Positions 29,556-43,456 of a stretch of 43,456 nt of DNA are shown piece after piece. The stretch spans positions 1 through 43,456 of the forward strand of contig CAJOES010000003.1 in assembly GCA_905233455.1 (NCBI GenBank), given 5' to 3'. Both the position numbers and the translations under genes were made by a program. The notes under the pieces were generated by a model. That model did no database searches. It saw only the letters and a program-made list of their open reading frames with translations, and was not told the DNA's origin. The number at the start of each line of letters is the position of its first letter. Position 1 is the first letter of the stretch. The stretch comes from an uncultured Synergistales bacterium. Lineage in GTDB: Bacteria; Synergistota; Synergistia; Synergistales; Aminobacteriaceae.

Positions 29556-30981
29556 TCTTCATGGCCTCAATATTTTCCCGCGCAATCTCCCTGACATTCT
29601 CACGCGGTATGCGCATAAGCTCCCGTTCAATCATCTCATAGCCCAGCTTCTTTGTCTCAGGCGAGGCGTAATCTTCAAGGTACTCCGTGAGCGTCATCAG
29701 TGCGTTGGGGTGGCAGCAATTGAGTATCTGCCCGGACTTGCACAACGCCATGAACCTGTCGCCTGTCCTGCCAGCCCTGTAACATGCCGTGCAGAACGAC
29801 GGTATATGATCCTGCTTCATGAGCCAGTACACTACTTCATCGAGCGTTCTCTGGTCGGAAACGTCAAACTGTTCTGTGTCGTGAGGCCTTTCCGCTTCCG
29901 TATAGCCTCCCACTGAAGTGCGCGAGCCTCCAGAAATCTGCGAGATACCTACCTGAAGCATTTTTGCCCGGACTTCTTCGCTTTCTCTGGTGGATATAAT
30001 CATTCCTGTATACGGAACTGCTACCCTGATACATGCGGCAATCTTCGTGAACACGTCATCAGGAATCGCGTTGTTGAACTCGTCCGGGTCAATGTCGTCT
30101 GCCGGTTTCACTCTCGGTACGCTGATCGTATGAGGCCCTACGCCGTGAACTGCCTCTAAATGCTCCGCGTGCATGAGCAGTCCCGCAAATTCATACTTGT
30201 AGCCTTCAAGCCCGAACAGCACGCCCAAGCCGACATCATCAATGCCGCCTTCCATTGCGCGGTCCATAGCTTCCGTATGATACGCGTAATCATGCTTAGG
30301 CCCGGTCGGGTGAAGTTCCTCGTAACGCTTCCTGTTGTAGGTCTCCTGAAAGAGTATGTATGTCCCTATCCCTGCCTCTTTCAGTTTGCGGTAATTCTCT
30401 ATGGTTGTTGCGGCTATGTTGACATTGACGCGGCGAATATCACCGTTCTTGTGATGGACGCTGTATATAGTCTTTATGCTGTCGAGTATGTACTCTATCG
30501 GGTTGTTGACGGGATCCTCTCCGGCCTCTATCGCAAGGCGTTTGTGCCCCATGTCCTGCAGGGCTATGACTTCTGCGCGAATCTCTTCCTGCGTGAGTTT
30601 CTTGCGCGGAATGGTCTTGTTCTTCGTGTGGTAGGGACAGTACAGACAGCCGTTGATGCAGTAATTCGACAGGTACAGCGGAGCAAAAAGCACTATCCTG
30701 TTGCCGTAGAACGCTAACTTTATCTCTTCAGCAACCTCATAGATGCGCTTGATCTTTTCGGGGTCTTCACATGCCAGCAAGACCGATGCTTCACGGTGAG
30801 TCAGCCCCGAACACGTGCAGCCCTTTTCGTTGTATTTAGGCCGTGCTTTCTCCAGAAGTGAATCGATTAGCGCAGAATCATCCTTGTGTGCCTGAGCGTA
30901 AATCAGCGTGTCAAGAATCTCATTATGATTGATGAACTCATCAGCTTTTAGTGATGCGGGATTGTATGTTGGTGCAGTCAT
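29527..30981 (-). CDS. hydG: [FeFe]-hydrogenase maturation radical SAM tyrosine lyase HydG
   Basis: HydG splits tyrosine to make the CO and cyanide ligands of the H-cluster. The 484-residue protein has the radical SAM cluster motif 'CINGCLYCPYH' (about 108) and the C-terminal second-cluster motif in 'CTACYRAGRTGDRFMALC' and 'NCCHPNAL'. The latter separates it from ThiH. Shine-Dalgarno GGAGGG precedes the ATG. It is the first gene of the minus-strand run; hydE is not present. Its promoter region is shared with the divergent glycosyltransferase gene. Confidence 0.97.
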   Translation of the reverse strand: MTAPTYNPASLKADEFINHNEILDTLIYAQAHKDDSALIDSLLEKARPKYNEKGCTCSGLTHREASVLLACEDPEKIKRIYEVAEEIKLAFYGNRIVLFAPLYLSNYCINGCLYCPYHTKNKTIPRKKLTQEEIRAEVIALQDMGHKRLAIEAGEDPVNNPIEYILDSIKTIYSVHHKNGDIRRVNVNIAATTIENYRKLKEAGIGTYILFQETYNRKRYEELHPTGPKHDYAYHTEAMDRAMEGGIDDVGLGVLFGLEGYKYEFAGLLMHAEHLEAVHGVGPHTISVPRVKPADDIDPDEFNNAIPDDVFTKIAACIRVAVPYTGMIISTRESEEVRAKMLQVGISQISGGSRTSVGGYTEAERPHDTEQFDVSDQRTLDEVVYWLMKQDHIPSFCTACYRAGRTGDRFMALCKSGQILNCCHPNALMTLTEYLEDYASPETKKLGYEMIERELMRIPRENVREIARENIEAMKNDNKRDFRF

Positions 30982-31055
30982 TTTTAGTTTTACCCTCCTT
31001 CTTTAGGGTCAGAGCGTGAATAAAAACTCTTTCCCGTCAGAAAATTTTTTGCATG

Positions 31056-31087
31056 ATTATAGCACTCATACAGTATTATGCTATAAT
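31056..31087. promoter_or_regulatory. Divergent extended -10 promoter pair in a 9-base inverted repeat
   Basis: ATTATAGCA (31056-31064) and TGCTATAAT (31079-31087) are perfect inverted copies 14 bases apart. Each arm is an extended -10 box (TGC-TATAAT), one facing hydG (minus) and one facing the glycosyltransferase (plus). The -35 region of each would overlap the -10 of the other, so firing may be mutually exclusive. No good -35 hexamer is visible for either. Confidence 0.55.
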
Positions 31088-31104
31088 TTCAAAAAATACA
31101 TGAA

Positions 31105-31128
31105 AAGGAGCTTGACAAAATCAAAATG
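31105..31128 (+). promoter_or_regulatory. Ribosome site and ATG upstream of the GACCA repeat
   Basis: AAGGAG ends at 31110 and an ATG starts at 31126 (15-base spacer, longer than ideal). The distance from the upstream TATAAT to the end of GGAG is 28 bases, identical to that at the neighbouring paralogue (32272 to 32300). The region also contains TTGACA-N16-CATAAT, which could alternatively be a promoter firing into the repeat. Confidence 0.5.
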
Positions 31129-31140
31129 GCCGTCATAATT

Positions 31141-31165
31141 GACCAGACCAGACCAGACCAGACCA
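31141..31165 (+). repeat. Five perfect tandem GACCA pentanucleotides (candidate phase-variation tract)
   Basis: GACCA is repeated five times without error, five codons after the ATG at 31126. With five copies that reading frame stops at a TAA soon after. With four or seven copies it would run without a stop into the glycosyltransferase frame. Short perfect tandem repeats of this kind change length by slipped-strand mispairing in other bacteria. Confidence 0.85.
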
Positions 31166-31229
31166 ATTTTATGTACTTATAAACCATATTAAACAAGTTG
31201 TAAAAAAATTCCTTTCAAGGCTTAGTTTA

Positions 31230-32192
31230 TTGAAATATATACAAAGAATGAAGCATAATTTTGGTTTCATTTTATGGCCTTTTGTGCGGTTCATATGGTA
31301 TATGGAACACATCTTGTTTAAGATATTCAAGAGAAAGAAAGAATACTGTATCCTTCGTTATTTAGGAAATGGAGCAGGTTTTTTTTGTTATTTCAATACG
31401 CTTCTGGGCGGTATTGCTTATGCAGACAGAAAAAATATGATTCCCATAATTGACATGAAATACATCAGAAACACATACCTTACTGATGATAAAGTAGGAA
31501 GGGTAAATGCGTGGGAATATTATTTTGAACAGCCGGCAAAAATATCTGCAGATGAAGTTCTTTCGCATGAAAGGTGTTTTATATTCGACCAGACACATTA
31601 CCTGCCGGGACCGCTTCAGAATCCTAATTTTTATTCTGGAAGAGGCGGTATGCTGAGTTACTGGCAAAAGATACGCAAAAAATACATTCGTTTAGCTCCT
31701 GCAGTTATAAACAGATTTGAGAATATGAAGATAAAGTACAAAGGCAAAAAAATACTTGGAGTACATATACGCGGAACTGATTACACAGTACTGAAACCAG
31801 CCGGACATCCTGTACAGCCTACACCTGAACAGGCGATAGACAAGGCAAAAGAAGCTATGCAGGAAAAAAATTTTGATATTTTATATCTTTCTACTGAAGA
31901 CAAGCGAATTATGTCGAAATTTCAAAAAGCATTCGGAGAAAAGCTGATATATCCCGAAAGCGAATATGTAGAATTTGATTATACAGGAAGCAATCACGGA
32001 TATATTGATTCGTATACTATCGACAGGGATAACGATAAATACCTGCGCGGCATGGAGTATCTAGTTTCTATATTGTTCCTGAGTCAGTGCGATGGAATAA
32101 TTTGCTCGCAATGCGGCGGTTCTACAGGAGCTTTCCTGTTTTCCGAAGGTTTCGATTATCTCTATGTCTTTGACTTGGGATATTATGACTGA
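31230..32192 (+). CDS. Fucosyltransferase-like glycosyltransferase, probably phase-variable (currently out of frame with upstream ATG)
   Basis: The called frame starts at a TTG (31230, AAGG upstream) and gives 320 residues. 'GVHIRGTDY' (about 183) and 'DILYLSTEDK' (about 225) match the HxR-type donor-binding region of the NodZ/FUT8/O-fucosyltransferase superfamily, so a GDP-sugar (perhaps GDP-fucose) transferase is likely. The frame remains open upstream to the GACCA tract, and residues encoded there ('VVKKFLSRLSLL') align with the paralogue's 'LMRKFIRNSKLL'. The true start is therefore probably the ATG at 31126, out of frame in this allele. A shorter product from TTG or ATG 31248 cannot be excluded. 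The acceptor is unknown; a cell-surface glycan is a reasonable guess. Confidence 0.8.
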   Translation: MKYIQRMKHNFGFILWPFVRFIWYMEHILFKIFKRKKEYCILRYLGNGAGFFCYFNTLLGGIAYADRKNMIPIIDMKYIRNTYLTDDKVGRVNAWEYYFEQPAKISADEVLSHERCFIFDQTHYLPGPLQNPNFYSGRGGMLSYWQKIRKKYIRLAPAVINRFENMKIKYKGKKILGVHIRGTDYTVLKPAGHPVQPTPEQAIDKAKEAMQEKNFDILYLSTEDKRIMSKFQKAFGEKLIYPESEYVEFDYTGSNHGYIDSYTIDRDNDKYLRGMEYLVSILFLSQCDGIICSQCGGSTGAFLFSEGFDYLYVFDLGYYD

Positions 32193-32268
32193 AGTATTGA
32201 TATGATAATTTTATTTTCATCTGCTACCTGGAAAATTTTTGGAGCATTAAAACACGTAAATATCTACA

Positions 32269-32300
32269 TGCTATAATTGCAAAAATTTGCTGTTATGGAG
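32269..32300 (+). promoter_or_regulatory. Extended -10 promoter and ribosome site of the paralogous glycosyltransferase
   Basis: TGCTATAATTGCAAAAA closely copies the sequence at 31079 (TGCTATAATTTCAAAAA). GGAG at 32297-32300 lies 11 bases before ATG 32312. No pentanucleotide repeat is present here. Confidence 0.55.
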
Positions 32301-32311
32301 TTATATAGCTT

Positions 32312-33215
32312 ATGAAACCATCAGGTAATTTCCATCCAATTAGATATATATTCAAACTGATGAGAAAATTTATCAGAAATTCTAAATTGCTTGATTTTCT
32401 GCTCAGAATAAGGACAAATTACCGCCTGTTCCTCTGGAAAGTCGAGTATGCACTCTTCAGCAGTATACGCAGAAGCAAAAAACTGTGCGTTATTTACATA
32501 GGCGAAACAAAAGCAGGCTTCTTTGCATGTTTTTTAAGAATCTTGTCAGGAATAGCATATGCTGACAGACATGCAATGATACCTGTAGTTGATATGAAGA
32601 ATCACTATAACGCTTATCTTGAGGAAGGAGAGCTAGGTAAAGTAAACACTTGGGAATATTATTTTATAACATAGACGGACAATTAGATTACTGGAGATAT
32701 ATATGCAGAAAATATATAGTACCTTCTCTTGCTGTACAAAATGAAATTGATAAGTTTAAGAAAAAATTTACGGGCAAAAGGGTTCTGGGAGTATCATTGC
32801 GCGGAACAGATTATGTAGTGCTCAAACTTCATGATCACCCTGTACAGCCGGAATCTGAGACCGTAATCACTAAAGCAGTAGAGGCAATGCGTGAAAATAA
32901 TTTTGATGCTTTATATCTATCGACTGAGGATAAAAACATTGTTGCAAGATTTCAGGAAGTGTTTGGTGAAAAGCTGCTGCTTCACGATGAAAAGTATGTG
33001 GATTTTGATTACAACTCTGACAAATGGATAACCCATTATTCAACCAACAGAGAACATGATAAATATCTTATGGGATTTGAATATGTAGTCTCAAAACTTC
33101 TGCTCATGGAATGCGCGGGTCTTATTACTACTATGACCTGCGGTACTACAGCATTAATGTGTATGTCCCAAGAATGGGAATATTTATATGTGTTGATTTG
33201 GGATATTACAGTTAG
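32312..33215 (+). pseudogene. Decayed paralogue of the fucosyltransferase-like gene
   Basis: Two frames together align with the preceding glycosyltransferase: frame one encodes the N-terminus through 'GIAYADRHAMIPVVDMK' and 'NTWEYYF', then stops; the other frame resumes at 'GQLDYWRYICRKYI' and carries 'GVSLRGTDYVVLK' and 'DALYLSTEDKNI'. About 45 codons present in the intact copy are missing at the junction (near 32670). A second frame change near 33195 separates 'YLYV' from a lost 'DLGYYS' and stop at 33213. With two lesions it is likely dead. The track ORF 32650-33312 runs on into the tRNA gene, which is an artefact of the lost stop. Confidence 0.8.
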
Positions 33216-33267: not shown

Positions 33268-33343
<76 letters not shown>

Positions 33344-41616: not shown

Positions 41617-43456
41617 GACTGCACCTAATATTAGCATCATGTCCGCAGATGACAACGGCCTCGACCCTAACTACAAGGAATTTCCGAAAAGTTTGTCGAA
41701 TGGCAGTGCGACACCCAACACTACAAGGCTGTTCTTCAGGTACAACAAGTATGACGGCAAAGGACGTATCTTCTTCATGAGGTACGGTTCATCTGAGGCT
41801 GCATCGGATGATCATACCGGACAGTCATACAAGGGCATTCCTGTAACGGTAACGTTTGACAATGCGGCTGTTAAGGATCACAACAAACCTACTACTGCTT
41901 CACTAAAGCTGTCGACTTACGATGGGAAAAACGCACCGACTCTTGAGTGGAGAATTAAGAGCGGAGACGGATTCGTGAGTGTTCCTGATGCGAAAGGCAG
42001 TACAGCTAATGCAGTCAAAGAGTTCAATGCGATTGCCGGAACGCCGTTATCTGATGTTGATACGGACGGCGAACTCACATTCGTGCTGAAAGGCGACGGC
42101 CCTGTAACCGTTACTGCTTCACAGGCAATCGGCGAGGCAAACGCCAAAAACTTCCTTAAGATTGAGGCAGAAGACAGCGACGAGACAACTGACGGCAAGA
42201 TCTACAGGATCACCGGAACTCCTGACAGTACAAAAGAGACCAAGAACAAGATCACCCTTACGGCCAAGAACAACTCAACCGGAGCAAGTGCAAAGATCGA
42301 CGTTACGATTGTAGGCCAAGTTCCCGCTAGTATAGATGCGAAATACTTGGTCAAGACGGCCAACTACCAGAAGGAATTTGACTTGAGCAAGAAGGTAAGC
42401 ATAAAACTTTCTGCTACAGGCTCAAAGCCTCTGACTTGGGATTTTGCTAACGGCACTACTGCTGAGGATTTATCGAAATACAACCTGACGCTTGATTCTG
42501 CTAAAGGCGTGATAGAAGGAACTCCTGAGATTGTTACGGCAAACTCGGACGGTACTGCCTATGAATCTAAGGATTTCTACGTTAAGGCTGTAAACGATGC
42601 GGGTGAGAGTGTGCCTCTTAACGTCAAGATTGGTATCAAAGGGCCTAAGGTGAAAATTAACTCGAAGCAGGTTGAAGTTACCAGAGGCAGCGATCTTGCA
42701 AAGCAGTTAGAAGAGAATCTGATTGAAACAGATGCTGGTGATGGCTACTATGTAACATACAAGTTAGATCCTAAGATGAAGGATACGGAAACAGCGGCTG
42801 TAGAAAATATCGGTATAGACCCTTATAACATAAGCAGGACTGACGATAACAAAGGCAAGCTGAACTTCCTTAGCGGTGTTTCTGACCTTAAGGCTACGAC
42901 CGGAACAACATTAAAGTTCATTGCGGACAACTACGGGACTGAAGTTGCCGGCAGTATCAAGATCATTGTACATGACCCGAAACCTGTAATAGCACAGGCT
43001 TCCGGAATAACCATGACTGCCAGCTTGAATGAGGCACTGACAGATACAATACCATTATCGATTGCAGACAACACCAGCACCGGAGATTCAAAGATTACAT
43101 GGAAGATCAATAACAAGGTTGATAAGCCTGTAACTGCGAAAATTAATATTCCGGACAAGACAGACACTACTAACGCTGAACTGCAGATAACGGTAGCGAA
43201 GGTTAAAGCAGACCAGTACGAATATCCATTAACCATACCGGTTGAGGTAATTGCTACAACCAGCTCTATCAAGGATAAGACTGCTGCTGCGAGTGAGGTA
43301 ATGCCTGTAAATATTACAGTCAACGCACCTGGCGATGCTGCAGCAGAAGCACCTGAAGCAGAGGCTGTACCCGAAGACGTGATCGCCCCCGAAACCGACA
43401 CTGAAGCAGAGGCAGAAACTGAAGCTGAACCTGAAGCAGAAGCAGAAGAGAATGCT
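41525..43456 (+). CDS. Giant surface protein, C-terminal continuation in the next frame, cut by window edge
   Basis: From about 41501-41525 a second frame (+1 base) reads 'WDVVATGTKPVTMNAYIAGK' and stays open to the right edge. It continues the Ig-like repeats ('LSATGSKPLTWDFANGT', 'LDSAKGVIEGTPEIV', 'ISRTDDNKGKLNFLSG'). The last residues are rich in Glu and Ala ('ETDTEAEAETEAEPEAEAEE'). No start codon or ribosome site of its own is visible, so it is the broken-off end of the preceding gene: a real frameshift, a sequencing error or recoding. In Synergistota such proteins often end in a Synergist-CTERM sorting tail; that part would lie outside the window and is a guess. Confidence 0.75.

Follow-up and report, generated by a model that had tools for sequence, protein, structure and literature searches.

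A pentanucleotide tract in a glycosyltransferase gene of an uncultured Synergistales bacterium as a probable copy of a genus-wide phase-variation cassette

The glycosyltransferase locus and its (GACCA)5 tract

We analyzed 43,456 nt of DNA (the window; positions 1–43,456 of contig CAJOES010000003.1, assembly GCA_905233455.1) from an uncultured Synergistales bacterium, genome label G000. All features described at the locus lie on the forward strand. An extended -10 element, TGCTATAAT (31079–31087), is followed by the Shine-Dalgarno sequence AAGGAG (31105–31110), an ATG start codon (31126–31128), and a tract of (GACCA)5 (31141–31165). A predicted promoter-like pair, TTGACA-N16-CATAAT (31112–31139; 11/12 matches), abuts the tract. 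Tandem Repeats Finder gave the tract a period of 5, 5.0 copies, and a 100% match, and it was the sole 5-bp array listed in the window. By direct reading and by this program, the order and positions of AAGGAG, ATG, and tract were exactly those given in an earlier note on this DNA; the element as a whole begins further upstream than the note had placed it, at the extended -10. Another repeat, (GAAGCA)8.5 at 43403–43452, has a unit that is a multiple of three and would not act as a frame switch.

With five copies, the frame of ATG 31126 reads MAVIIDQTRPDQTNFMYL and ends at a TAA (31180–31182). The glycosyltransferase coding frame (31167–32192) is intact over 341 codons plus TGA, contains the conserved motifs, and comes into register with the ATG when the tract has 4 or 7 copies. 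In silico translation yielded ORFs of 353 or 358 aa with 4 or 7 copies, and products of only 18–23 aa with 3, 5, or 6 copies, confirming the claim that removing one repeat or adding two opens the frame. Thus, a non-triplet tandem repeat lies between the start codon and the ORF body, and in silico a change in copy number shifts the ORF in or out of frame, as at translational phase-variable loci mediated by simple sequence repeats. The sequenced allele (n = 5) is predicted to be OFF or to yield a shorter protein, in agreement with the earlier reading. The TTG at 31230–31232, the start that a gene caller would choose, is preceded by a weak AAGG about 9 nt upstream, and initiation there could yield a certain amount of a shorter protein when the gene is OFF.

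Comparison with homologues supported the claim that the coding sequence reaches the tract. The residues between the tract and TTG 31230 are conserved (HIKQVVKKFLSRLSLL, SVIKSVKEFLKKYDRFHVL, and HGLKSVKEFLKQHDRFHVL), and a tract-less homologue (G016:C74) begins with an ATG at the position of the tract (MIRSVLSALKSFLKKHARFHIL). Tract-less homologues are variable at the N-terminus, and in some of them the start lies further in (L173). The first ~20 residues of the window glycosyltransferase may therefore be dispensable. Tract-free and decayed-tract homologues exist (L171, L174, L177, and L195), as do homologues in other species with arrays of their own (G041 with n = 8, G021 with GACCA and GACAA, G002, and G016).

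The description of the enzyme as fucosyltransferase-like found only remote support. A profile of the family matched PDB FUT8 with E = 8.8e-6, aligning along the catalytic stretch only, whereas the window enzyme scored 16.5 bits against Pfam FUT8_N_cat, under the gathering cut-off of 27.6. A single-sequence AlphaFold model of the glycosyltransferase had a pLDDT of 40 and was unusable. The enzyme belongs to a family remotely similar to FUT8: it resembles the GT23 alpha-1,6-fucosyltransferases in the profile of its catalytic region, including the R-G-T-D motif region, and differs from them in falling under the Pfam cut-off and in aligning outside this stretch nowhere.

A tract-less paralogue lies next to the gene (32312–33195). 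It is broken and likely a pseudogene, since query residues 3–115 and 153–329 match it in two frames, with an internal deletion (~37 aa) and a frame change. Its TGCTATAAT promoter and ribosome-site spacing are similar to those of the window gene. A tRNA-Arg(CCT) (33268–33343) adjoins this glycosyltransferase family, and the same kind of tRNA-like sequence is found beside homologues from other genomes (L173, L059 near 4573, and L255), which suggests that this neighbourhood is an insertion hot spot.

A shared leader before interchangeable repeats

A leader of ~45 bp containing a Shine-Dalgarno sequence, TTGACA, a start codon, and ATAATT was found before short tandem arrays in 118 places. The 28 genomes concerned comprise 27 from the window's genus, a 'Fretibacterium'-like group of uncultured Synergistaceae from the ruminant gut, and one from a different genus. 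AAAGGA(G) was kept across the cassette alignment. Model R1, which represents the leader and first repeats, detected about 125 sites in 28/43 genomes of the genus and two weak sites in one other genus; at E <= 5e-6, no R1 site was found in 140 other genomes of the order. Many R1 matches covered the leader only, and the sequence after them consisted of other tandem arrays. The window site (31101–31155, the conserved leader and first three repeats) was among the three best matches in the whole genus scan; its score of 58.6 bits (E 1.9e-17) is not independent, because the set from which the model was built included the site itself.

The source genome (166 contigs, 2.49 Mb) carries three further GACCA arrays with at least three copies. 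The pattern ATAATT(GACNN)3 had 8 matches in this genome, with the units GACCA, GACAC, and GACAA, compared with 0 for the reversed control, and the leader at these sites was uniform, AAAGGAGCTTGACAAAATCAAAATGGCCRTCATAATT or a close variant, except where a contig end cut it. At least 17 cassette loci were counted in this genome, namely 15 from the unit survey, one on C94 with its leader cut off, and a second TGGTC array on C35. The idea that the TGGTC arrays on C35 and C38 were inverted tracts was dropped, as the C38 leader is ordinary and in the same orientation, and TGGTC is another unit. On contig C13, two cassettes lie 1.1 kb apart (17090 and 18207; L009 7096 and 8213). One, GACACx8, is at the 3' end of a 399-aa dehydrogenase-like ORF whose stop overlaps the ATG of the next gene, and the other, GACCAx7, is in frame within a nucleotidyltransferase gene. 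On contig C89, (AGAAG)10 follows AAAAAGGAGCTTGATTTTT and opens another long frame (L152 8879–8929); this is possibly a cassette variant outside the model.

In a search of 84,980 species, ATAATT(GACNN)3GAC matched 25 times, against ~7 expected by chance by our own arithmetic. All but two of these matches (23/25) fell in Synergistaceae/Synergistales MAGs, for the most part from the guts of goat, reindeer, and red deer, or in uncultured Fretibacterium. The three-unit pattern occurred in 15/43 genomes of the window's genus and in 0/145 others among 188 Synergistota genomes. The cassette pattern had 0 matches in 2.9 million viral contigs, and a phage origin of the cassette was rejected on this ground. 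Bare (GACCA)4 was present in 41 viral contigs, so the GACCA repeat alone is not diagnostic. In a genome of another genus (G077), (AAGC)14 follows the same leader (L258/L299); the stop of the leader frame and the start of a 432-aa protein overlap, and the N-terminus of this protein is signal-like. The cassette system extends to at least a second genus.

Repeat units over the 118 cassettes were 5 bp (82), 7 bp (34), 4 bp (1), and 8 bp (1) long. No array unit was a multiple of three, the sole 6-bp call being two copies at a decayed site. About 28 unit sequences were found, including the heptamers TCAGGAC, AGCCGAC, AGCAGAC, ACAGCAC, AGCTCAC, AACCACG, and GCAACGA, the further pentamers TCAAG, GAACA, and GCACA, the octamer GACGCAGG, and the tetramer AAGC x14 of the other genus. 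Identical 16-nt leader segments precede between three and five different units, and the unit can differ between orthologous genes (AGTCAGG in G010 and GGAAGCA in G003). Every unit seen was stop-free in all frames and hence encodes the same repeated peptide whichever frame is read. The encoded peptides vary between units (DQTRP, DTTRH, VKSSQ, and DSGLRTQ), which indicates that the frame, and not the peptide, is what is kept.

Leaders were more similar within than between genomes (0.488 vs 0.449), a borderline result against 300 label shuffles; this difference is weak, and we do not claim copying of leaders within genomes. Two loci (L264 on G038:C8 and L297 on G037:C37) are 94% identical over 278 nt of upstream sequence and leader and have different genes beyond the array, so that the array may be a point at which downstream genes were exchanged.

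Judging from Pfam matches, the genes behind the arrays are mainly glycan genes. They include glycosyltransferases (GT2, GT4, GT61, and GT87), acyltransferase_3, pyruvyltransferases, methyltransferases, PIG-L deacetylases, Stealth proteins, UDP-glucose dehydrogenases, a sulfatase, and a bacterial sugar transferase.

Coding frames, copy numbers, and promoter signals

We examined the frames downstream of the 97 arrays with enough sequence, placing an array in the long-ORF class when one frame, starting directly at the array, stayed open for 120 codons or more. This was the case for 78 of the 97. Their leader start codon was ATG in 69 and TTG in 8. At the assembled copy number, 22/78 (28%) were in frame (binomial p = 0.40 against 1/3), close to the one third predicted for arrays that slip freely. 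Upstream of the first in-frame start codon, about 228 stops were expected and 0 were seen, a chance estimate of about 1e-65 that is conditional on the frame having been defined as open. In several genes, domain matches start 5–6 residues past the array (Glycos_transf_2 at residue 6 and Stealth_CR1 at residue 5), so that translation has to begin before the array.

Nineteen arrays sit in short leader ORFs. In ~12 of the 19, the stop of the leader overlaps the next start codon (ATGA) or is separated from it by no more than about six bases. Such leaders precede an ornithine-cyclodeaminase-like gene (C13), putative alpha-1,2-fucosyltransferase genes in G021 and G010, recognized by motif, and other genes. 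The position of the leader stop at the next start codon points to translational coupling rather than attenuation and suggests that these loci may be phase-variable by such coupling.

Copy numbers were compared between genomes. At the syntenic site of the window gene, adjoining hydG, there are 5 copies in G000 and 4 in G016, whereas G029 and G012 have the gene without the cassette; all four retain the upstream extended -10. In three near-identical ortholog pairs, the arrays differ by 20, 21, and 60 bp, of which only the 20-bp difference changes the frame. This is the pair G026 and G040, with 8 and 4 units of TCAAG (one of the four altered) and flanks 96 and 99% identical. The other pairs are G008 and G030, with 3 and 6 units of 7 bp and the same C/T difference in every unit, and G038 and G037, with 15 and 3 units of GACCA. 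Copy numbers in MAGs assembled from short reads may be collapsed, many goat MAGs showing 4–5 units. Eighteen contigs end exactly inside an array, which fits copy-number variation or assembly failure and by itself proves neither. The earlier note had looked to related genomes for a test of phase variation: the copy number is not fixed, orthologous loci differ by whole units, and with the in-frame fraction given above this comparison supports its reading.

Two promoter signals were recognized. The element P1, of the type TGNTATAAT, was present upstream of the leader in 38/56 loci compared with 4.2 in shuffles, in most loci about 30 bp ahead of TTGACA. It is also kept at orthologous loci that have no cassette (G029 and G012) and is therefore the likely promoter of the gene; at the window, P1 is the TGCTATAAT element. 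The second signal is the pair embedded in the leader. TTGACA was exact in 52/56 leaders, and a -10 with at least 4/6 matches, spaced N16–18 from TTGACA and touching the array, was found in 54/56. The pair is kept even at loci where the ribosome site and start codon are shifted. As predicted from these positions, a transcript from the embedded pair would begin in the array, without the Shine-Dalgarno sequence and start codon.

A predicted translational switch and its alternatives

These results suggest that (GACCA)5 is very probably a translational contingency switch, and that leader and tract together are one copy of a dispersed, genus-wide cassette controlling glycan genes. Transcription from P1 would produce an mRNA carrying AAGGAG and ATG 31126, and ribosomes would translate through the tract into the glycosyltransferase frame. 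Slipped-strand mispairing would add or remove 5-bp units and thereby change the frame, alleles with n = 1 mod 3 (4 or 7) being ON and those with 5 or 6 being OFF or showing weak internal initiation only. The cassette would thus place glycan-modifying genes under independent on/off control across the genus, and the resulting surface diversity may serve, e.g., against phages, protists, or host immunity.

The conserved embedded pair could also be taken as a working promoter, with transcription starting in the array, the repeat number tuning transcription or mRNA stability, and the protein made from TTG 31230. The spacing kept in nearly all leaders and the terminator-like hairpins seen by eye just upstream of the leader at L058, L070, L136, and L139 are in line with this. 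Its transcript, however, would be without the Shine-Dalgarno sequence and ATG, and a separate P1, common to cassette-less orthologs, is present in most loci. Nor does such a promoter require non-triplet units, yet the unit length is nowhere a multiple of three, and long frames are open up to the array edge at 78 loci. Because coding runs to the array edge, we rejected a promoter-only model as the main function and consider this explanation improbable. That the five-copy tract is merely a frameshift scar in a decaying glycosyltransferase gene is very improbable. The adjacent paralogue is indeed broken, and tract-free and decayed-tract homologues exist, but the window frame is intact over its 341 codons with its motifs, homologues from other species have retained arrays of their own, and more than 100 further places carry the array, mostly ahead of intact frames.

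Two further explanations concern what the repeats encode, and to each we assign a minimal probability. Transcriptional attenuation by a repeat-containing leader peptide, in which the number of repeats fixes the ribosome's stopping point with respect to a terminator, would suit the 19 short-leader loci, where in ~12 translation of the leader could control the next gene. At these loci, however, the stop at the start codon points to translational coupling, and the window array lies in the gene's own frame. No terminator-like site was found in window positions 30900–32400, so that the pairing of leader ORF and intrinsic terminator known from pil1 of Streptococcus gallolyticus is not seen there; the RNA fold was ordinary (z -0.01), and a model of the tract as an RNA structure was dropped for want of signal. 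The repeats might instead encode a functional N-terminal peptide, (DQTRP)n, for interaction or targeting, with copy number tuning its length. The absence of stops in every frame, which preserves one repeated peptide in any frame, would agree with this, but the peptide differs with each of the about 28 units and orthologous genes carry different units. A search of the window for inverted repeats closely bracketing the tract, as in an invertible-DNA switch, returned only weak or AT-rich distant pairs.

The predicted translational switch resembles the phasomes of Haemophilus, Neisseria, and Campylobacter, in which slipped-strand mispairing of simple sequence repeats causes translational phase variation of surface glycan genes. 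Both have a non-triplet repeat in the 5' coding region, involve many independent loci whose targets modify glycans, and show ON and OFF states of about one third and two thirds. Here, in contrast, one conserved ~45-bp leader stands on unrelated genes while the repeat unit varies freely, and the host is an uncultured ruminant-gut Synergistota lineage and no known pathogen. The nearest precedent for the short-leader loci is pil1/pil3 of S. gallolyticus, where a GCAGA pentanucleotide repeat lies in a short ORF upstream of the regulated gene and, in pil1, a frame change moves the end of the leader and acts via a transcription terminator (PMC3894217). The present loci differ in that, at about 12 of them, the leader stop overlaps or adjoins the start codon that follows, and in that most cassettes, that of the window included, are direct fusions. 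Our search of the open-access literature turned up no account of repeat-mediated phase variation in Synergistota.

As to the embedded pair, our guess is that this promoter raises slippage by opening the array DNA. We tentatively put forward, with considerable doubt, a portable contingency cassette copied or recombined onto new genes with varied repeats, in which an embedded sigma-70 promoter raises slippage and does not make productive mRNA. If true, the embedded promoter would be a case of local hypermutation at the array driven by transcription initiation.

The claim of a single phase-variable gene holds up but understates the case, which by comparison of genomes looks like a genus-wide phasome with one leader and interchangeable repeats. 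Because gene callers assign such genes a wrong start codon further downstream or treat them as broken, MAG annotation misses the whole class; the leader model detects new members without prior knowledge of the repeat. The predicted switches would form a large set, directed mostly at glycans, in a ruminant-gut lineage that is uncultured, and in this set one leader, many units, and many genes provide a comparative system.
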